DNA of 64,000 bases, taken from NCBI RefSeq assembly GCF_004366375.1, contig NZ_SOEF01000004.1, forward strand, positions 1-64,000. Reading direction: 5' to 3'. This document shows, piece by piece, positions 31,615 through 46,001 of the stretch. This DNA comes from Halanaerobium congolense. GTDB lineage: Bacteria > Bacillota > Halanaerobiia > Halanaerobiales > Halanaerobiaceae. The translations under genes and the position numbers were made by a program. Under the pieces are notes generated by a model. It worked only from the letters and a program-made list of their open reading frames with translations, searched no databases and was not told the origin of the DNA. Every line of letters begins with the position of its first letter. Positions within the stretch are counted from its first letter, which is position 1.

Positions 31615-33459
31615 GTGTTAAAAATAATTACTATCATCAGGGATGTAATAGAGAAAAATAAAATAGAAGCCTATCTTAATCAGGCGAAAAGAAAAATTGA
31701 CAATGTTGATTTTGAACTAGTTGGGGGATTTAATGATAATCGAAAAGCGGTTAATTATCTTTATCAAAATGATGATATCGATATCATCATAGTTGAAAAT
31801 AGAGAAGACGAAATTTTTTCAGGATTAGATTTATTAATGTTGGCTGATAAAGAATTTACAGGATCAAGCATTATGCTGTTAACTGAATCAGATAAAAAAC
31901 TGGATCTTGATTATGAAAACACCAATAATTTAACAGCTATTTTTAATAAAAATGATAGTTATTCAGCTTTTGCTAACCTATTATCATTAACAATGTTTAA
32001 GCAAAAAAAGAAAAAAGAAGATTTAAAAGCTAGAGAAGAGAAACTAAATGATTATCGAACTATTATTGATCATACTCATGATGCAATATTTTTAATTAGA
32101 GTTGACTGTGATGATAATTTCTATTATAAAAGAATTAATGCAACACATGAGCGTTTAACAGCTTTAACTGATAAAGAAATTAGAGGTAAGCGGGTCAACC
32201 AAATTTTTAGTGAAGAAGTAGCTGTCGAACTAGAGGCGAAATACAGTAAATGTTTAAGAAAAAAAGAAAAAATTAATTATACTGAAAAAATAACTTTTCC
32301 AGCTGGTCAGAAAGCATGGCAGACTACTTTATATCCTGTGGTCAGGAACGGAAGAGTAGAAGAAATTGTAGGGGCCTCTTATGATATAACAGAGTTAGAG
32401 AAGCAGGAACAGAAATTAAATCACATAAAAAGATATGATAAGCTTACTGGCTTATATAATAAAGAGTATTTTAACCAACTTTTTGGAGAGTTGAATCAGA
32501 ATAATGAGGATAAACTAGCATTAATCTTAATTAATGTAGAAAATTTTCATTTAATTAATAAATTTTTTAGTTATCAGCAGGGAGATGAGGTCTTAAAACA
32601 AATAGCCTCAATTCTGGCTCAAATTTCAAATAAGGATATAATTACAGCTCATTTATATGCTGATCATTTTGCAGTGATGTTAAAAAATAAAAGTGATTTT
32701 CAAATAGATCAAAAACTTAATTTTGTACGGAAAAAACTTGCGAAAATTAATATTAATGGGATCTATATTGATATATCAGCAGTTTCAATGATCAAATTAG
32801 ATAAAAAAACAACTGCCCAGAATTTTTTTAATGATGGGGTTTCCAAAATCAATTTTAGTAAGTATAAACAAAGTAAGGAAAGTAAGTTTTATAGTTCAAT
32901 CTTAAATTATGTAGAAGAAAATAATTATATCAACTTAAGGCAGGGAAATAGACTTTTAAAAATTTCTAAAAAGACTGCAGAATATTTTAATTTAAATTCT
33001 GAAGAAAGATCTAAGCTGCTGCTTTTAGCTAAGCATCATGATCTAGGAAAGTTAGCTCTTGCCAAAAATATTGTCAAAAAGGGTGCTAAATTAACAGAGG
33101 TAGAATGGTATGAATATCAAAAATATGTTCTAAATTCAGCAGTTTTTGCAGCTTACTATCGTGATTTAGTTGATATTTGTGATCTTATTTATTCTCAGGC
33201 AGAACACTTTGACGGGAATGGATGGCCTCAGGCTTTAAAAGGAGACCAAATTCCATATTTAAGCAGACTTTTTGCAGTAATTAATTTTTACAGTAAATTA
33301 AAATCAAATATTTACTTCCCTTTTCTGCAAAATAAGTACTATTTTGGAGCTTTAGAGGAAAAGGAAATCATTGATGAATTAGAATATTATAAATCTAAAG
33401 TATTTGATCCAGAAATTGTGGATAAATTCATTAATTTTTTAAATAATAAAAATAAATAG
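31615..33459 (+). CDS. Degenerate REC-PAS-GGDEF-HD-GYP signalling protein
   Basis: A 614-residue cytoplasmic protein. A receiver-like region (1-125) lacks a clear phospho-acceptor aspartate. A PAS domain (about 145-260) follows. The GGDEF-like domain (about 275-425) begins normally (KLTGLYNKEYF) but has ADHF in place of GGDEF, so it should not make c-di-GMP. The HD region (about 445-605) keeps HDLGK (about 474), but the second histidine pair is replaced (QAEHFDGNGWP). It is probably a binding or scaffolding protein. It starts with GTG after GGAGAGGG. No target is evident from neighbours. Confidence 0.75.
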   Translation: MLKIITIIRDVIEKNKIEAYLNQAKRKIDNVDFELVGGFNDNRKAVNYLYQNDDIDIIIVENREDEIFSGLDLLMLADKEFTGSSIMLLTESDKKLDLDYENTNNLTAIFNKNDSYSAFANLLSLTMFKQKKKKEDLKAREEKLNDYRTIIDHTHDAIFLIRVDCDDNFYYKRINATHERLTALTDKEIRGKRVNQIFSEEVAVELEAKYSKCLRKKEKINYTEKITFPAGQKAWQTTLYPVVRNGRVEEIVGASYDITELEKQEQKLNHIKRYDKLTGLYNKEYFNQLFGELNQNNEDKLALILINVENFHLINKFFSYQQGDEVLKQIASILAQISNKDIITAHLYADHFAVMLKNKSDFQIDQKLNFVRKKLAKININGIYIDISAVSMIKLDKKTTAQNFFNDGVSKINFSKYKQSKESKFYSSILNYVEENNYINLRQGNRLLKISKKTAEYFNLNSEERSKLLLLAKHHDLGKLALAKNIVKKGAKLTEVEWYEYQKYVLNSAVFAAYYRDLVDICDLIYSQAEHFDGNGWPQALKGDQIPYLSRLFAVINFYSKLKSNIYFPFLQNKYYFGALEEKEIIDELEYYKSKVFDPEIVDKFINFLNNKNK

Positions 33460-33482
33460 AATACAACCAATTAAAATTCATG

Positions 33483-33682
33483 TTATCCACAAGTTATTAA
33501 CAAAACAGGTGTTTTATCCACAGTTGTTAACATTTAATTAACAAAAGATGTGGATTAATCAGCATAGTTACCAACATGTTATCCACAAATTGTGGATATT
33601 AAAAATGATTATCACTTACAATGATCGATAATATGTAAATAAAAGCCATTCTAGTAGATTTTATAAAGATTAATGTGGATAA
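33483..33682. promoter_or_regulatory. Cluster of six DnaA boxes
   Basis: Four exact TTATCCACA boxes (33483-33491, 33514-33522 and 33579-33587 on plus; 33674-33682 on minus) and two one-mismatch boxes on minus (33549-33557, 33591-33599) lie in 200 AT-rich bases without genes. They are interspersed with GTTATTAACA/GTTGTTAACA-type repeats. No dnaA or dnaN gene lies nearby, so this is more likely a DnaA titration or regulatory site than oriC, but an origin is not excluded. Confidence 0.75.
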
Positions 33683-33702
33683 AATAATAAAGGAGGTAGA
33701 AC

Positions 33703-34755
33703 ATGAGAAAATTTTCTCGAATAAAATCAAGTGAGATCGGTCATACACCCGGAACTTTACATGGTATAGAGAAAGAAATTGATGCAGAAATTGAACTGAT
33801 AAGATTTAATGAGGATGATATTAAGCGGGAAATGATCGAAGAATTTTCACTTGAGCTGATTGAAGAAGAGAATTATGTTAACTGGATTAATATTACCGGC
33901 ATTCATGATGTTGAGCTGGTAAAGGAAGTTGGTAAGTTAATTCAGCTGCATCCACTTACACTAGAAGACATTACAAATACCAGACAACGTCCTAAAAAAG
34001 AAGAGTTTGATAATTATATAATTACAATTTTAGATATGCTTAGTTATCAAGGAGAGTACATACAGTCAGAACAGGTGAGTTTAATCTTATTAGAAAATGC
34101 AGTTATAACTTTCCAAGAAGCACATGGAGATGATTTTAATCAAGTTAGAGTTAGGATTGAAGAAAATAAAGGTCAAATTAGAAAAAAGGGTGCAGATTAT
34201 TTATTTTATGCTCTCTTAGATGCAATTGTAGACAATTATTTTCATATTTTAGAAAGAAACGAAGAAGTGCTGGAGGAACTTGATGATCTGGTTGTTGCAG
34301 CTAAAACTGGCCCGGATACTTTAGAAAACATTCAGGATTTAAAACAGGAAATAGTTTTTTTGCGCAAAACTATCTGGCCTTTAAATACGATCTTTGGTAA
34401 TTTATATCGGGTTGAATCACCGCTTTTATCAAAAGAAACAGATTATTATTTGCGTGATGTTTATGATCATGTAGGACAATTAATGGATGAAATTGATGTG
34501 GGTCGCGATATGCTTTCCAGTATGCTGGAAATTTATCTTTCAAATAAGAGCAACAAAATGAATGAAGTAATGCAGTTTTTAACTGTAATTTCTACTATTT
34601 TTATTCCCCTTACTTTTATTGCCGGAGTTTATGGAATGAATTTCAAATATATGCCAGAACTGGACTATAAAATTGCTTATCCTGCTGTTATGTTCTTAAT
34701 GCTGTTGATTGCTGTTGTACAGCTGATTTATTTTAGGAGCAAAAAATGGCTTTAG
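33703..34755 (+). CDS. corA: Magnesium/cobalt transporter CorA
   Basis: A 350-residue CorA-type channel: cytoplasmic alpha/beta domain, long stalk helix, and two C-terminal membrane helices joined by the selectivity motif YGMNF (about 309). It moves Mg2+ (or Co2+/Ni2+) inward as a pentamer. AAGGAGG precedes the ATG. The DnaA-box cluster lies directly upstream. Its last 10 bases overlap the next gene. Confidence 0.95.
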   Translation: MRKFSRIKSSEIGHTPGTLHGIEKEIDAEIELIRFNEDDIKREMIEEFSLELIEEENYVNWINITGIHDVELVKEVGKLIQLHPLTLEDITNTRQRPKKEEFDNYIITILDMLSYQGEYIQSEQVSLILLENAVITFQEAHGDDFNQVRVRIEENKGQIRKKGADYLFYALLDAIVDNYFHILERNEEVLEELDDLVVAAKTGPDTLENIQDLKQEIVFLRKTIWPLNTIFGNLYRVESPLLSKETDYYLRDVYDHVGQLMDEIDVGRDMLSSMLEIYLSNKSNKMNEVMQFLTVISTIFIPLTFIAGVYGMNFKYMPELDYKIAYPAVMFLMLLIAVVQLIYFRSKKWL

Positions 34756-37700
34756 ATTTATTAGCAATTATTTCGGCAGCAGGGACAGGGGCGATAACTG
34801 GCTATTTAACAAATAATCTGGCCTTAAAGATGATTTTTAAAGAGTACGGTCCACTTGGGGGAGTGGTAATCAAGACTAAAGATGAGTTTATTGACAGCAT
34901 TTCTGCTTTAGTTGAAAGAGATTTGATTAATCATCATACTTTAAAAGAAGAATTTTCTCATCCGAATTTCAAAAAAGAATTTAGTAGAACTGTAGATGAC
35001 TTTATAAATAACCATTTAGAAAATCATAGTTCTAAAACTTTAATTTCTGATATACCTGCCTGGGAAGATAACCTTGAAATACTAACAGAGGGTGCAGCTG
35101 AAGCAATAGTGGAGCTTTTAGGTGTCAGTAGTGAACAACTAAAAGACGTTGAATTAAATAAACTTATTGCTGACTCTGATCAGAAGAAAATTACTGCTGA
35201 AATTTACAGCAGAATTCTGAAAAAGCTAGAATCTGAGGCTGTGGTAGAAAAGCTAGTCATTGAATTTTATCAGCAGCTGCAGAATAAAGAGTTAAAAGAG
35301 CTCTTAAATGTTGAAAGCAGAAAGCAGCTTAAAAATACCATTAAGAAGCTAAATGAAAATTTTAAGAACAACTATCAAAAACTTAACCAGCTTGAAAAAA
35401 ATGATTTTAAAGAAAAAACTAAAGAACTTTTGAATTTAGAAGATTTTAGTAAAGATATAATAAATGAGATTAAAAAGATTAGAATTAATGACCTTTTAAA
35501 AAGTAAAACTGAGATTGAAAAGGCGAAAGATAAAGCAAAAATCAGGAAGATATTAAAAGAGATGTTGGTAAACATTAAAATTGAACTTAACAATTCTGAT
35601 TTTATCTTAGCAGATTTTTTAACTGAAGATCTCGAGGCAGAATTAAAGGCTGAAGTAGAAAAAATTATCTCTGCTGGAGATTCAGAACTATTAAACTTCT
35701 TAACTGAAGAAGAAAACGAGTTAAATAGCTTAATCTTTGAGGCTGTAGAAGCTGAGATCGAAGCCAGTGCTGGTTTTAAAGCAATGAGTCGTCAGGGTAT
35801 TTATAGTAAATATCAAGAAAATATAGACGAATATGCTTTGCCAACAACTTATCTAATAGACTATCTTAGAGACAATCTAAATGCTGATAAGCAAAAGATA
35901 ACAGAGTTCTTTTTTAGCAAAATAAAAAAAATAAAGATAAATAAACTAGTAAGTAAAATTGAGATAGAAGAGCTTACTAATAATTTAGAAACTTTAATCT
36001 GGGATTTTTATCAGCAAAATAAAGATAAAAGATTAATAGAACTTTTTTCTGAAGATTTTTTTGCTCAGGACTATTTTTCAAATAAAATTATGGATTTGTT
36101 GTTCTCCCTGATAAAAAAATTAAGCGAGGAATCAGAATCAATAGATATTATGGTTGATTATGTATTTAACTTTAGATTGAAGGATTTAATTACAGAGACA
36201 GCAGTTAATAATAAAAAGGAGATTGCTGCAGCTAATTTTTATAAATTCATGCAGGAAGAGAATGTAATTCAGGCACAAACTGCTGCTTATTTGAATCAAA
36301 ATTTCTTTGCTATTTTAAATAGTAAAGTTAATAATTCTAAAGCTAAATTTAAAAATTTAATTCAAAGGTCCTTTAGTAATTTAAAAACCACATTGTCAGC
36401 AGAGGAAATATCTTCTTTTTATAGGGTTTTTAGAGACAATCCAGAAGCTGTTGCAGATTTAACTGAATCAATATCGACTTTCTTTTATAATAATTTACCT
36501 GAACTATTAGAAGGCAAAATTGCTGAAGCAGCATCAACAAATTTACATAAACTTTCAGATCAGGAAGTTCAGGCTGCGATAGAAGATTTTATGGGTAAAG
36601 AATTAAAACCAATTACTTATCTAGGAGCTTTGCTGGGTGCTGCTGCTGGGTTGATTTTTGCTGCCAGTGGTGCAGAAACTGCGATCTTTAACGCTTCCCC
36701 GGTTTGGGTTGACTATTTAAGTTCAGCTGTATTATACGGTGGGGTGGGTTGGTTAACTAATGTTTTAGCAATCTGGATGATCTTTCATCCTTATCAGCAG
36801 AAAAAATTAGCTGGTTTCAAATTGCCTTTCACTCCAGGAATAGTAGCAAAGAATAGAAGTCGTTTTGCTAATTCTATGGGTAGATTTGTAGAAAAGGAGC
36901 TGCTAAAAGCTAATTCTGCAGCAGAAATTATAGAACAAAATCATTCACAAATTAGTGCTCGGACTGTAGAATTTTTTGAAGAAAATGACTATCAGCAATT
37001 TTTTGATCTTATTACAGAGAATAATCAAATTTTAGCTGAGACAATTTTGAACAGTTTAAAAAGTATAATTTCTGAATTAGATCAGCAGAGCTTTGAAAGT
37101 GCAGCAGCAGCTTTTAATCAGGAATTAAATTTATTATTTAAAGAGAAAGCTGGAGACTTTGATTTTGCTTTTGAGTTTACTAAATATTTAAAAGAAGATA
37201 ATGATTTCTTAAATTTAGAGTCCAGACTTAGTTCCAATTTTAAGACGGAAAAAATAATTGAAGCAGCTGCTGGTGAATATAATTTAGAATTTAGTTCAAA
37301 AGAGCTGAAAAATTTTATGCAGAACAAAGAACTTTATCCCATAGTAAAATTTTTAGTCCCGTATTTATTTGAAAGAGAAATTGATTTTGATTTAAAACAA
37401 TATCTAATTAACATTGCAAAAGAAGAAGCTGATCATTATTTGGATCAGGGTCGATCTCTATTTTTGGAGCAGCAGGAAAAAACGGCTCGTTTGATTAATT
37501 TTAAGAAAGATGAAATTATAGAAAAAGAAAAAGAGAAAAAAGGTGGTCTGCTTAAAAACACCTTAATTTCTGGCGCACTCTACATGGCTGATTTAGATGA
37601 ATTTATAGATTCTGTTGTGGCAAGAGTGTTTAAGCAGCTGGAAGATGAATATTTTATAGAAAATAGAAGTAAATTAGAAAGTATATATTTCTCATTTATA

Positions 37701-38495
37701 AATAAGATTGAAAATAAAGAACTAATGACTAAAGATAGTTTGAAGACTAATCAGATACTGAAAAGATTCTTAAATACAGAAGCGGGATCTGAACTTTTAA
37801 CAGAAGCTTTATATTTAAATGAAGATCTTCTGACTGATTTAATTGATTTAACTTTTAAGTCAGAAAACAAAAAGCTTTTTTCCTTGAATTTAAGCATTGA
37901 ATCTGAATTAGTTGAGTTTTTTATAAATGAGCATTTAAATCTTGAACAGAAGTTAGAGATTTTAATTCAGTTCAAAAAATTAATTTCTACAGATAATATA
38001 AAAAAGGAACTTGGTCAGTTAATAAGACAGCTTGACTTTGGTCTTTTAAATCAAGAGTTAAAGAAGATATTTGGCGGGCTTAAATTATTAGATGCCGGAT
38101 ATTTTGATGCTGAATTCTTAGCAAAATTTAAAGAAAATAGCAGCTCGTTATTAGATGATCAAAAATTAAGGAGATCTTTGCTAAGTCAACTTGAAGCTGA
38201 GATTTCAAAAGTGACTGAGACTTTAAAAATTGAAATGAACAGAGACAGTTTAAGATATTTATTGACTTTAGTTATTGAAGCAGGAATTGATAGTTTCAAA
38301 ACCAATTCCGAAGCTTTACTTTCAAGTCTTGAATTAAAAGAGTTGACTGCCAAAGAAATACGGAAAATGAATCCAGCAGAAATAGAGAATATTTTTGATA
38401 GTTTTGCCGGAGAATATTTCAATCATCTAAAACAGTACGGCTGGTTTGGTGGTGTTTTTGGTGTGCTGCAGCTGCTTTTAAGAACAGTGATTTAA
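34746..38495 (+). CDS. Giant protein with two DUF445 modules
   Basis: A 1249-residue membrane-attached protein of unknown function. The first DUF445 signature is at the N-terminus (GTGAITGYLTNNLALKMIF). A second, with a longer hydrophobic stretch, starts near residue 625 (YGGVGWLTNVLAIWMIFHP, then FTPGIVAKNRSRFA). Long Lys/Glu/Leu-rich helical regions follow each, and a hydrophobic tail ends the chain (WFGGVFGVLQLLLRTVI). Single-module relatives (YheB/YjiN type) are about 380-450 residues, so this looks like an internal duplication or fusion. It starts inside corA, with AGGAG, and is translationally coupled to it. Confidence 0.72.
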   Translation: MALDLLAIISAAGTGAITGYLTNNLALKMIFKEYGPLGGVVIKTKDEFIDSISALVERDLINHHTLKEEFSHPNFKKEFSRTVDDFINNHLENHSSKTLISDIPAWEDNLEILTEGAAEAIVELLGVSSEQLKDVELNKLIADSDQKKITAEIYSRILKKLESEAVVEKLVIEFYQQLQNKELKELLNVESRKQLKNTIKKLNENFKNNYQKLNQLEKNDFKEKTKELLNLEDFSKDIINEIKKIRINDLLKSKTEIEKAKDKAKIRKILKEMLVNIKIELNNSDFILADFLTEDLEAELKAEVEKIISAGDSELLNFLTEEENELNSLIFEAVEAEIEASAGFKAMSRQGIYSKYQENIDEYALPTTYLIDYLRDNLNADKQKITEFFFSKIKKIKINKLVSKIEIEELTNNLETLIWDFYQQNKDKRLIELFSEDFFAQDYFSNKIMDLLFSLIKKLSEESESIDIMVDYVFNFRLKDLITETAVNNKKEIAAANFYKFMQEENVIQAQTAAYLNQNFFAILNSKVNNSKAKFKNLIQRSFSNLKTTLSAEEISSFYRVFRDNPEAVADLTESISTFFYNNLPELLEGKIAEAASTNLHKLSDQEVQAAIEDFMGKELKPITYLGALLGAAAGLIFAASGAETAIFNASPVWVDYLSSAVLYGGVGWLTNVLAIWMIFHPYQQKKLAGFKLPFTPGIVAKNRSRFANSMGRFVEKELLKANSAAEIIEQNHSQISARTVEFFEENDYQQFFDLITENNQILAETILNSLKSIISELDQQSFESAAAAFNQELNLLFKEKAGDFDFAFEFTKYLKEDNDFLNLESRLSSNFKTEKIIEAAAGEYNLEFSSKELKNFMQNKELYPIVKFLVPYLFEREIDFDLKQYLINIAKEEADHYLDQGRSLFLEQQEKTARLINFKKDEIIEKEKEKKGGLLKNTLISGALYMADLDEFIDSVVARVFKQLEDEYFIENRSKLESIYFSFINKIENKELMTKDSLKTNQILKRFLNTEAGSELLTEALYLNEDLLTDLIDLTFKSENKKLFSLNLSIESELVEFFINEHLNLEQKLEILIQFKKLISTDNIKKELGQLIRQLDFGLLNQELKKIFGGLKLLDAGYFDAEFLAKFKENSSSLLDDQKLRRSLLSQLEAEISKVTETLKIEMNRDSLRYLLTLVIEAGIDSFKTNSEALLSSLELKELTAKEIRKMNPAEIENIFDSFAGEYFNHLKQYGWFGGVFGVLQLLLRTVI

Positions 38496-41660: not shown

Positions 41661-44600
41661 ATGAATTTAGATTATGTAATAAAGCGAGATGGAAAAAAGG
41701 TAGAATTTAAATCAGAAAAGATTGAAAATGCTGTGGCAATGGCAGTTTCCGCAGTAAAGCAGGCTGATCCTAAAATTGCTGCTGAGATAACAGCTGAGGT
41801 ATTGTCTTATTTAAAGATTTTTTTTAAAAATGGTGGCACAGTAGAGGTAGAACAGATCCAGGATCTGGTGGAAAAAGTTTTGATCGAAAAAGGTTATGCC
41901 GAAATCGCAAAGGCCTATATTCTCTACCGGGAACAGCACAGTAAACTTAGAGACAGCAAAAAGCTTTTTGCTGATGCGGTTGATATTATGGACGATTATT
42001 TAGACCGCAGTGACTGGAAGGTAAATGAAAATTCTAATATGAGTTATTCACTTCAGGGCTTAAATAATTATATCGCCTCAGAGGTGACGGGTCAGTATTG
42101 GCTGCAGGAAATTTATCCTGAGGAGACTGCAGATCTGCACAGCAGTGGTGATTTACATATTCATGATCTGGGCAATTTGAGTGTTTACTGCTGTGGCTGG
42201 GATTTAGAGGAGCTTTTGAGGACCGGTTTTAGAGGGGTGACTACCAAAATTGAAAGCTTACCACCAAAACACTTAAAGACAGCTCTTGGGCAAATTGTAA
42301 ATTTTTTCTATACACTCCAGGGGGAGAGCGCTGGTGCCCAGGCTTTTTCTAACTTTGATACTTATCTGGCCCCCTTTATCGCCTATGATGGTCTCAACTA
42401 CAAAGAAGTTAAACAGGCGATGCAGGAATTTTTATTTAATATGAATGTACCAACCAGAGTTGGTTTTCAGACCCCTTTTACAAATATCACCATGGACCTT
42501 GAGGTGCCCAATTATTTAAAAGATCAGGCGGTTATAATTGGTGGTCAGTATCAGGAAAAGTGTTATGGTGAATTTCAACAGGAAATGGAGATGCTTAATC
42601 GAGCTTTTGCTGAACTAATGATGGAGGGTGATGCTAAGGGCAGAATGTTTTCCTTTCCAATTCCTACTTATAATATAACTGAGGACTTTGAGTGGGAAAA
42701 TAAAAAATTGGATCCGGTCTGGGAAATGACAGCTAAATTTGGGATACCATATTTTTCTAATTTTATCAATTCAGATATGGATCCCGAAGATGCAAGAAGT
42801 ATGGCAATACTTGGTGCACAGGAAGTTATTTATAAAAATCAAAACGGTAATATAGCAAAGAATGAAATAAGACATCTTGTAAATAATTGGATTGAAGCTC
42901 CAAAAAACAAAAAACCGGATTATAAAATGTTAATGGATGGGAAATTTGTTGATATTATTGATATGTTTGAAGTACCATATGAAAATTATTCTACTTATAT
43001 AAATATAGAATTAGAAAATGGGTATAAGCAGAGTTTTTCATATGAACACAAATGTGCAGTTGTTAGAAATGGCGAGTTTAAAGAAGTTGAAAGTCAGAAT
43101 CTTTTAGTTGGAGATGAATTCTTACTGTCAAGAAAAGCTTATAGTCAAAGTTTTATAGGAAATTATCAATCTGGTAAGATTTTGGGTTACTATCTGGGAG
43201 AAGGTTGGATAAATAATCATAGTAAAGGGGAAATTTGTTTTGCTATAAATATCAATAGAAAAGATATTGTTGATGAAATAAAAAATTATTTTAATGAAAT
43301 AGCCTGTAAGGTTAAAATAGAAAAAATTGATTCAGACAGCATTTATAAAATTAATGTTTATGGAAAACAGGCTGTTGGGTTTGTTAAAGACTACATTAGA
43401 GGGAAAAAAGCGACTACAAAAAGATTAAATAACTTTGTCTGGAATAGCTCATTAGAGTTTAGAACAGGAATTGTTGATGGGCTTTATGAAACAGATGGTA
43501 ATAAAAATAATAATATTCTTTTCCACACAACTAATAAAAAACTTGCTGAAGATTTAATTACTCTTGCTAATACTGTTGGAAAAAGATTAAAATATAGAGA
43601 AAACAATAAAAACACCAGATATTTTAAACAAGATAAGTCTGACAAAGAAATCTTTACAAGCTATGAACTAAAATTCAAAGATGATTATAATACCTTTAAA
43701 TTGGATAATAGTAATTTTGATTTAGTTAAAATTAAAAATTTAAGACAAATAGGTACAAAAACAGATACAGTATATAACTTTACTGTAGATACCAACCGAC
43801 ATCTTTATGAGTTGCCAAATGGAATAATAACTCATCAATGCTGCAGATTGAGGTTGGATAACAAAGAGCTCCGCAAAAGAGGAGGTGGCTTATTTGGGGC
43901 TAATCCTCTAACTGGTTCGATAGGTGTAGCAACTTTAAACATGCCCCGCATCGGTTATCAGGCTCAGACTAAAGAAGAGTTTATGGAAAGAGTCTATTAT
44001 CTGATGGATCAGGCAAAAGAAAGCCTGGAAGTTAAGCGCAGAGTTTTAGAAACTCTAACTGAGCAGGGCCTATACCCCTACGCAAAGTTTTATTTAAGAG
44101 ATATAAAAAAACGCTTTGATCAGTACTGGAAAAATCACTTTAACACAATTGGGCTCAATGGAATGAATGAAGCTCTGCTCAATTTCATGGGTAAAGATAT
44201 TTCAACTCCAGCCGGACAGAAGTTTTCTGAAGAAGTAATGGAAAAGATGAGAGAGCGTCTGCAGCAGTATCAGGAAGAAACAGATAATATGTATAATCTT
44301 GAGGCAACTCCAGCTGAAGGAACAGCCTATCGTTTTGCCCGCTTGGATCGAGAAAAGTTTGGAGATCAGATTATTGCTGCCAATCAGGAGCGGGTAATTA
44401 AGGAAGATGCAGATCCCTATTATACCAACTCAACTCAATTACCGGTAGGATTAACTGATGATATTTTTACAGCTTTAGAGCTGCAGGATGAACTTCAGTC
44501 ACTTTATACTGGGGGCTGCATTGAAAAAGGTAATAAAGTTTTAACAAATAAAGGTGCAATTAAAATTGAAAAAATTGTGAGAGATTATGAAAATTTAAAA

Positions 44601-46001
44601 CCAATTAAGGCTTTAAGTTATAATGCAAAAGAAGATAGATCTGAGTGGGATTTAATTACAGATGCTATGTCAATAGATGTCAGTAAAAATAATAAGATAA
44701 GAGTTACTGCTGAAAAAGGTCTTGATATAACTACAAGTGACTGGCATCCATTTTTTGTATTAGAGAAAATATCAGTTAAGGATAAATGTCCAATTTGTGG
44801 AGAAAAGGTTAAGGGGACAAAGTCGTTTTCAACCCATACAAGGTATAATCCTGAATACAGAAAAAAATATAAAACAATGTTTAAATTTAAAGTTGTAGAA
44901 AAAAGAGCTGATGAACTAAATATTGGAGATTATATACTTCAAAATAGTGAAAATTTATACCCCGAAAAAGAATCGTTGCTGGACAATGATTTAATGTGGC
45001 TTTTTGGATATTTTATTGGAAATGGCTCAATTAGTGAATATGAAGACAATCGTGGTGGTAATCATCTAAAAAAATATAAATTGAGATTTAATGATGAACA
45101 CTTGAGTAATTTAGAAAAAGCTAAAAAAGTAATTAATAATAAATTTAATACAGATATTAATATAATAAAAAATGACAAAAGAAGTGAAAAATTATATGAA
45201 CTAGCTACAACTATGTATTCAGTTAATGAGTATTTTTTAAAGTATTGTTTTTTTAGCGGCGAAAAATGTTATGAAGTTAATATTCCAGAGCAAGTAAAAG
45301 CTAATATAACAAAGAATAATGTTTATTCTTTGTTATCAGGTTTAATTGATAGTGATGGGCATATAAATAAGAAACATGGAGATATAGAGTATTATACTGT
45401 TTCTGAAGAGTTAGCTGATGATATTGTTGAAATATTGTCCACTGCAGGTATCATGGTTTCTAAAGAAGATAAACCCAGTAAAAGAAAAAATGAAGTAGAT
45501 GGATTTAGAATACGAATTCCAGCACAGCAGGCAACTAAAATAAAAAATAAGTTAACGATTACAAATGATGCAGATTTTATTAAAGATAAGTTATCTTTAA
45601 GAAAAAGAAGACAGCTGCCAGTTGTTAGGGTTAAGAAAACTAGTAAAATTGAAATAGAAGATAATGAATTTTATGATTTAACAACAGAAAAAAACCATAA
45701 TTATTTAGCTGGAAATAGAACAATGGTTTTTATTCATAATACGGTCCTCCATGGATTTCTGGGAGAAAAAATTGATTCCATTAAAGCTACTAAAAAGCTG
45801 GTCAGACGAATTGCTGAAAACTTTAAGCTCCCCTATTATACTTTAACACCATCCTTTAGTATCTGTCCGGTTCACGGATATCTGCCGGGAGAGCATGAGT
45901 ACTGTCCTAAATGTGAGGCAGAAACAGAGGCTGAACCAGAAACAGTTGAGGCAAATTTTGCTTTTAGCGAAAAAAATAATTCAGAAAGTGATGTGGAATA
46001 G
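41661..46001 (+). CDS. nrdD: Anaerobic (class III) ribonucleotide reductase, interrupted by two inteins and lacking its glycyl-radical tail
   Basis: A 1446-residue precursor. Residues 1-90 are the ATP cone; the catalytic barrel follows, with DLHIHDLGNLSVYCCGWDL. Intein 1 (382-726) splits RSM|CCRLRL and intein 2 (953-1360) splits YTGG|TVLHGFLGE. Splicing would leave a 693-residue enzyme. The C-terminus reaches SICPVHGYLPGEHEYCPKC, the zinc-site region, then a short acidic tail, and stops without the RVxGY motif where class III enzymes carry the glycyl radical. That motif is encoded by a separate small ORF after nrdG. AAGGAGG precedes the ATG. Control is by the cobalamin riboswitch. Confidence 0.95.
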   Translation: MNLDYVIKRDGKKVEFKSEKIENAVAMAVSAVKQADPKIAAEITAEVLSYLKIFFKNGGTVEVEQIQDLVEKVLIEKGYAEIAKAYILYREQHSKLRDSKKLFADAVDIMDDYLDRSDWKVNENSNMSYSLQGLNNYIASEVTGQYWLQEIYPEETADLHSSGDLHIHDLGNLSVYCCGWDLEELLRTGFRGVTTKIESLPPKHLKTALGQIVNFFYTLQGESAGAQAFSNFDTYLAPFIAYDGLNYKEVKQAMQEFLFNMNVPTRVGFQTPFTNITMDLEVPNYLKDQAVIIGGQYQEKCYGEFQQEMEMLNRAFAELMMEGDAKGRMFSFPIPTYNITEDFEWENKKLDPVWEMTAKFGIPYFSNFINSDMDPEDARSMAILGAQEVIYKNQNGNIAKNEIRHLVNNWIEAPKNKKPDYKMLMDGKFVDIIDMFEVPYENYSTYINIELENGYKQSFSYEHKCAVVRNGEFKEVESQNLLVGDEFLLSRKAYSQSFIGNYQSGKILGYYLGEGWINNHSKGEICFAININRKDIVDEIKNYFNEIACKVKIEKIDSDSIYKINVYGKQAVGFVKDYIRGKKATTKRLNNFVWNSSLEFRTGIVDGLYETDGNKNNNILFHTTNKKLAEDLITLANTVGKRLKYRENNKNTRYFKQDKSDKEIFTSYELKFKDDYNTFKLDNSNFDLVKIKNLRQIGTKTDTVYNFTVDTNRHLYELPNGIITHQCCRLRLDNKELRKRGGGLFGANPLTGSIGVATLNMPRIGYQAQTKEEFMERVYYLMDQAKESLEVKRRVLETLTEQGLYPYAKFYLRDIKKRFDQYWKNHFNTIGLNGMNEALLNFMGKDISTPAGQKFSEEVMEKMRERLQQYQEETDNMYNLEATPAEGTAYRFARLDREKFGDQIIAANQERVIKEDADPYYTNSTQLPVGLTDDIFTALELQDELQSLYTGGCIEKGNKVLTNKGAIKIEKIVRDYENLKPIKALSYNAKEDRSEWDLITDAMSIDVSKNNKIRVTAEKGLDITTSDWHPFFVLEKISVKDKCPICGEKVKGTKSFSTHTRYNPEYRKKYKTMFKFKVVEKRADELNIGDYILQNSENLYPEKESLLDNDLMWLFGYFIGNGSISEYEDNRGGNHLKKYKLRFNDEHLSNLEKAKKVINNKFNTDINIIKNDKRSEKLYELATTMYSVNEYFLKYCFFSGEKCYEVNIPEQVKANITKNNVYSLLSGLIDSDGHINKKHGDIEYYTVSEELADDIVEILSTAGIMVSKEDKPSKRKNEVDGFRIRIPAQQATKIKNKLTITNDADFIKDKLSLRKRRQLPVVRVKKTSKIEIEDNEFYDLTTEKNHNYLAGNRTMVFIHNTVLHGFLGEKIDSIKATKKLVRRIAENFKLPYYTLTPSFSICPVHGYLPGEHEYCPKCEAETEAEPETVEANFAFSEKNNSESDVE
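42804..43838 (+). mobile_element. NrdD intein 1 (LAGLIDADG type, Ala1)
   Basis: 345 residues inserted in the conserved sequence RSM|CCRL. The first residue is Ala, not Cys or Ser, and the last pair is His-Gln, followed by extein Cys; these are non-canonical splice residues seen in a minority of inteins. A block B-like histidine lies in FSYEHKC. Two LAGLIDADG endonuclease motifs are visible (ILGYYLGEG and GIVDGLYETDG). AT-rich, Lys/Asn-rich codon use differs from the flanking extein, consistent with a mobile insertion. Confidence 0.92.
44517..45740 (+). mobile_element. NrdD intein 2 (LAGLIDADG type, Cys1)
   Basis: 408 residues inserted at YTGG|TVLH. It starts with Cys, ends His-Asn, and is followed by extein Thr: canonical class 1 splice residues. 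Block B is TSDWHPFF; the endonuclease motifs are LFGYFIGNG and LLSGLIDSDGH. A possible zinc-binding insertion (CPICGEKV) lies before the endonuclease. Its sequence differs from intein 1, so they are independent invasions. Confidence 0.94.

Follow-up and report, generated by a model that had tools for sequence, protein, structure and literature searches.

In Bacillus subtilis, six clusters of DnaA boxes lie outside oriC, and the available parts of two sources report that deleting all of them leads to early initiation (PMC13220808, PMC5295017); in the portion available, the second judges the role of these clusters to be minor. The accessible text of a third report places them at ywcI/vpr, gcp/ydiF, trmE/jag, ywlC, yqeG/sda and yydA, and describes the strongest in vitro binding of B. 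subtilis DnaA at array-like regions (PMC4447404). In Escherichia coli, the sections at hand of PMC5742627 describe ATP-DnaA assembly at oriC on low-affinity boxes that share one direction, and give same-direction boxes plus an IHF site as requirements of datA. The DARS core, as covered by the available text of two articles, contains one opposed box (PMC5742627, PMC10380432), and PMC10380432 describes the head-to-head pair as essential in DARS.

We analysed a window of 64,000 nucleotides from Halanaerobium congolense (contig NZ_SOEF01000004.1, positions 1 to 64,000), in which an earlier note had described a cluster of six DnaA boxes (four perfect) between 33460 and 33702. An exact 9-mer recount bore this out: exactly six 9-mers in the interval were within one mismatch of TTATCCACA, with perfect boxes at 33483+, 33514+, 33579+ and 33674− and one-mismatch boxes at 33549− (TAATCCACA) and 33591− (ATATCCACA). 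A fifth perfect box (33417−) stood just outside, within the 3' end of the upstream gene. The same note's claim that this is far more than chance would give also held. Sixty third-order Markov surrogates of the window contained at most one perfect box per 266 bp (observed, five), and a Poisson estimate based on the 51 perfect boxes genome-wide gave ~6 × 10−8 such stretches expected per genome. Across the whole window there were 83 near-boxes of TTATNCACA versus 86.9 expected; because there was no overall enrichment, the box signal is local. As judged from the aligned sequences, the six boxes differ in weight, and the conserved part is 33478-33622. The features of the locus are as follows.

31615-33459, plus strand: upstream PAS-GGDEF-HD gene (Pfam, synteny); not found next to the cluster in G004, G021 and G022 (3/14).
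33417-33425, minus strand: perfect box lying in the terminal part of the upstream coding sequence and probably incidental; perfect in 7/12 genus genomes, within codons, and absent in G004, where the upstream gene is missing.
33478-33622, plus strand: conserved ectopic DnaA-box element of ~145 bp, the whole unit matched by model R1 (alignment and model).
33483-33491, plus strand: box 1, TTATCCACA; invariant in 14/14 family genomes.
33494-33502, plus strand: weak box TTATTAACA, 11 bp past box 1; mean score with the oriC-derived PWM 3.2 bits (12 genomes), with no score ≥0 at that column in G021.
33502-33515, no strand: palindrome AAAACA-GG-TGTTTT between boxes 1 and 2; AAAACANNTGTTTTATCCACA once per genome in 13/14 family genomes, absent in G021.
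33514-33522, plus strand: box 2, TTATCCACA, 31 bp (~3 turns) past box 1; position and letters invariant, 14/14.
33524-33532, plus strand: weak box TTGTTAACA, 10 bp past box 2; PWM mean 4.4 bits; TTTTACACA one column later in G021, none in G022.
33535-33543, plus strand: weak box TAATTAACA, 11 bp past the 33524 box; PWM mean 5.7 bits; G021 and G022 have weak sites at the corresponding position.
33549-33557, minus strand: box 3, opposed, TAATCCACA; PWM mean 12.1 bits; in G021 and G022 an opposed box falls at this column or the one after it.
33568-33576, plus strand: weak box TTACCAACA, 11 bp ahead of box 4; PWM mean 5.0 bits; stronger in G021 (TTATCAACA) and G022 (TTATTCACA).
33579-33587, plus strand: box 4, TTATCCACA; perfect in 10/12 genus genomes; in the other two, G001 and G003, a 1-bp deletion disrupts it.
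33591-33599, minus strand: box 5, opposed, ATATCCACA, 12 bp past box 4 with ACA ends facing; invariant in 12 genus genomes; G021 and G022 also have an opposed box here, again spaced by 12 bp.
33674-33682, minus strand: perfect box close to where corA begins, not conserved (2/12 genus genomes, G000 and G005).
33703-34755, plus strand: corA (Pfam); not found next to the cluster in G001, G003, G009 and G022 (4/14).
34746-38495, plus strand: DUF445 gene (Pfam); downstream of the cluster in 14/14 genomes (cut by a contig end in G010).

The PWM was built from 160 boxes in the oriCs of 14 genomes, each differing from TTATCCACA at no more than one position, a set that leaves out weaker oriC boxes. Its nine best sites in the element were the five strong boxes (33483, 33514 and 33579 on the plus strand, 33591 and 33549 on the minus strand) followed by the four weak ones, in the order 33535, 33568, 33524 and 33494; the tenth scored lower and was an opposite-strand site overlapping that at 33524. 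All four weak boxes are on the plus strand and each lies 10-11 bp from another plus-strand box, a chain that random placement of four sites reproduced in 7 of 400,000 trials, in a test designed after the sites had been seen. The layout is kept in two halves in G021 and G022, where the distance between the halves is shifted by 1 and 5 bp. Strong and weak roles are swapped in the right half of both, with the 11- and 12-bp spacings unchanged, and a counterpart is missing for the weak 33494 site in G021 and for the weak 33524 site in G022. An Rfam scan of 33000-34200 gave no structured-RNA match at E up to 1, and no terminator was found in a scan of 33380-33760. We also considered AAAACA-NN-TGTTTT as a widespread operator and rejected it, the longer form occurring once per genome in 13/14 genomes and the core motif six times in the 800 kb sampled.

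The element is strongly conserved. A search for pairs of perfect boxes separated by no more than 30 bp gave a single non-oriC place in each of the 12 genus genomes, where the gap was exactly 22 bp every time, and the other matches were at oriC. The alignment of these genomes (A1) had 90 invariant columns out of 153 and a mean identity of 86%; in the same nine genomes, 72/103 columns were invariant in the element core versus 540/1053 in corA. Model R1 matched its own genome at E = 1.4 × 10−36 and two further genera at E = 3 × 10−15 and 1 × 10−19, and the element was at the same locus in 14/14 genomes of the Halanaerobiaceae examined, from three genera. The earlier note had proposed that loss of the boxes in close relatives would weaken a regulatory role; this check did not count against it, as all 14 genomes retain the element. 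A class-wide search matched 16/59 genomes at E up to 10−4, comprising the 14 family genomes and G015 and G016, whose matches were near their dnaA; the other 45 class genomes had no non-oriC match under stricter filters, which could miss weak relatives. Scanning for three perfect boxes within 300 bp outside oriC gave no second place in G000, G001 or G004, and lone two-box pairs outside oriC occurred once each in G000 (C4:85781/85972) and G004 (1555427/1555463). Thus, on comparison of these genomes, this is a conserved, family-specific DnaA-box element outside oriC. Its kind is already known; the instance and the lineage are new as far as literature searches show, which returned no paper on DnaA clusters in Halanaerobium by title or abstract start and covered few subscription papers.

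The coding neighbourhood showed features of its own. DUF445 proteins within the genus are 40-57% identical to that of the window; this 1249-aa protein evolves fast, while the non-coding element upstream is nearly fixed. About 8 kb downstream of the cluster (41661-46001), an anaerobic ribonucleotide reductase (NRDD) frame of 1446 aa is broken up by segments resembling inteins, which have LAGLIDADG and homing-endonuclease matches; the apparent homologue in G022 has 680 aa.

The only strong dnaA match in the genome was on contig C45, and there was no dnaA-type match on the window's contig. From a reading of the C45 ORFs by eye, we take the order there to be gyrA, gyrB, recF, dnaN, dnaA, a box-rich gap (oriC), rnpA, a membrane-insertase-like gene and a GTPase. 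The checks of GC skew and dnaA position that the earlier note had suggested both placed the cluster away from the origin. In the complete congeners G004 and G001, sampled at 20 stretches of 20 kb per genome, the skew stayed positive between dnaA and roughly the middle of the chromosome and was negative in the rest, turning at dnaA and not at the cluster, which lay well inside one replichore. The window had positive skew on either side of the cluster, and the sign was the same on both sides in 14/14 genomes. The cluster is 218 kb (9.5% of the chromosome) to the right of oriC on the plus strand in G004 and 153 kb (5.8%) to the left on the minus strand in G001, mirror positions on opposite arms that both point with the fork. 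Boxes 1, 2 and 4 were on the G-rich strand in all 14 genomes. As a separate observation, contigs C5, C14 and C16 of G000 each have a perfect DnaA box at position 58-66, and this shared offset suggests a repeat common to the contig ends.

These properties are close to those of the B. subtilis clusters as the available literature describes them, which are likewise groups of DnaA boxes outside oriC, several intergenic, described as oriC-proximal and set in a YabA background. YabA is present here as well, so initiation control looks B. subtilis-like. Dense boxes outside oriC were found here too, close to it in the two complete congeners (5.8% and 9.5%). In contrast to the six clusters reported for B. 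subtilis, there was one by perfect boxes in G000, G001 and G004, at a different locus, and the Halanaerobiaceae element has a strict phased layout kept across genera. With datA, as presented in the accessible part of PMC5742627, the element shares a non-coding cluster near oriC of strong and weak boxes in the same direction, which are essential in datA; by layout, the element has this same-direction arrangement of strong and weak boxes. The box spacing differs. datA needs an IHF site between boxes; in the element a palindrome lies between boxes 1 and 2. The Halanaerobium oriC has a common box vocabulary with the element, including weak boxes spaced by 11 bp (TTATCAACA pairs) and opposed boxes. 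Unlike oriC, the element has no dnaA neighbour, which origins usually but not always have, and no skew switch, and its palindrome (AAACANNTGTTT) was absent from 13/14 oriCs scanned. The earlier note had offered three explanations, namely a DnaA-titrating site, a DnaA-controlled corA promoter and a displaced origin. The first is the best supported, given the conservation, the oriC-proximal position in two complete relatives and an architecture that would suit a DnaA oligomer.

Regulation of corA itself is disfavoured. The cluster did not travel with corA, being kept where corA (4/14) or the upstream gene (3/14) was missing, and because it persists in genomes with no adjacent corA we rejected corA-specific regulation as the main reason for its conservation. 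A broader form of this explanation, in which the element is a DnaA-controlled promoter or operator of the [corA]-DUF445 operon, perhaps onward, so that DnaA would activate or repress these genes according to the replication state and conservation would reflect cis-regulation, we consider unlikely. DUF445 was downstream of the cluster in all 14 genomes, so cis-regulation could also explain the conservation; this link counts for little because much of the neighbourhood is syntenic anyway. In G001 and G003, DUF445 starts ~27 bp past box 5, and any local promoter there must therefore overlap the cluster. The available text on B. subtilis also describes DnaA as activating or repressing genes beside several clusters (PMC4447404). 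However, promoter-like sites were at shuffle level (3 found, 3.1 expected), and at 14/14 loci from other families (L123-L136) no more than one near-box lay in the region of up to 1.5 kb upstream of the DUF445 homologue, although some of these DUF445 matches start inside the gene. A DUF445 link conserved outside the family was thus rejected, as there were no box clusters upstream there.

A DARS-like element, whose opposed boxes and in-line third box would strip ADP from DnaA and promote initiation, is doubtful. The half formed by 33568+, 33579+ and 33591− has the +,+,− arrangement of the E. coli DARS core, two in-line boxes and one opposed, with box I head-to-head with II and III in line. However, the spacing is 11 and 12 bp here versus 12 and 14 bp in E. 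coli K-12, where we measured boxes at −12, 0 and +14 in both DARS1 and DARS2. The opposed-pair pattern matched 19/38 order genomes and was outside oriC in 18 (all but G021). Eight of these loci were outside the family (G024-G030 and G032), representing few independent loci by their flanking genes, and seven of the eight had a third box at −11, which is not part of the pattern; in G024 and G029 the triad shares a contig with dnaA, at distances of ~55 and ~34 kb, respectively. When named genomes were searched for the 11/12 triad, at least 19 stretches matched, a lower bound because the scan is blind to variants with other letters. Eleven were outside Halanaerobiales, and among the matches listed, 8 of those 11 were inside oriC, beside dnaA or rnpA (the oriC context of L226 was read from the lines between L224 and L229). 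Since the triad is common inside oriCs, including those of other Bacillota, it is an assembly module of the origin type that has been redeployed outside origins, and it is not diagnostic of DARS. DARS membership was rejected on these grounds, the topology fitting but the spacing differing, and B. subtilis is described as lacking DARS loci in the available part of a review (PMC13220808). In another family of the order (L100:7650-7760, L101:1790-2100, L206-L211), there are smaller groups of DnaA boxes that include an opposed pair, located between an MFS and a ThiF gene or close to these genes. A Phascolarctobacterium MAG has a DnaA-box cluster with an 11/12 triad (L229, ~6759, locus reverse strand), and the 2.2 kb covered on each flank contains no dnaA.

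Descent alone is a very improbable explanation: a relict of an old oriC duplication would account for box types like those of the family's oriC, including the shared TTATCCACA-N22-TTATCCACA spacing, but the element is more conserved than its flanking genes, box strengths turn over as positions stay, and decay of the layout was not seen in the three genera examined. A displaced or second origin, for which the oriC-like box array speaks, is refuted for practical purposes by the dnaA gene and canonical oriC on C45 and by a skew that turns only at dnaA and near mid-chromosome in G001 and G004.

The reading that we favour, and consider probable, is a dedicated, non-origin, oriC-proximal DnaA-binding control cluster of the Halanaerobiaceae that restrains initiation by nucleating a DnaA oligomer and would act in the manner of the B. 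subtilis clusters or of datA in E. coli. From the layout we infer that DnaA would occupy the strong boxes first, and that the weak same-orientation boxes 10-11 bp away would then support a head-to-tail oligomer, as at an origin, with the two opposed boxes closing each half of the element. Being early in the replichore, the element would be copied soon after initiation, and because an oriC-near element doubles at that time, DnaA would be held back and the next initiation delayed. The element may also favour DnaA inactivation. A pure sink would need no such strict letters and spacing, and the invariant 23-bp stretch with its palindrome suggests something beyond titration. It is conceivable, if improbable, that the element is an active switch of the DnaA nucleotide state outside the Proteobacteria, similar to DARS or to datA, which stimulates ATP hydrolysis by DnaA, with a second factor on AAAACA-GG-TGTTTT, and that the triads of other Halanaerobiales families are further instances.

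To our knowledge, the control of initiation timing in Bacillota outside Bacillus is largely unknown. Clusters of DnaA boxes away from origins could be sinks that arose by accident or devices shaped by evolution, a question that we regard as open. The element provides a compact target of 145 bp for binding and deletion tests. Box phasing that has been held over three genera, with the neighbouring genes changing, indicates an evolved device.
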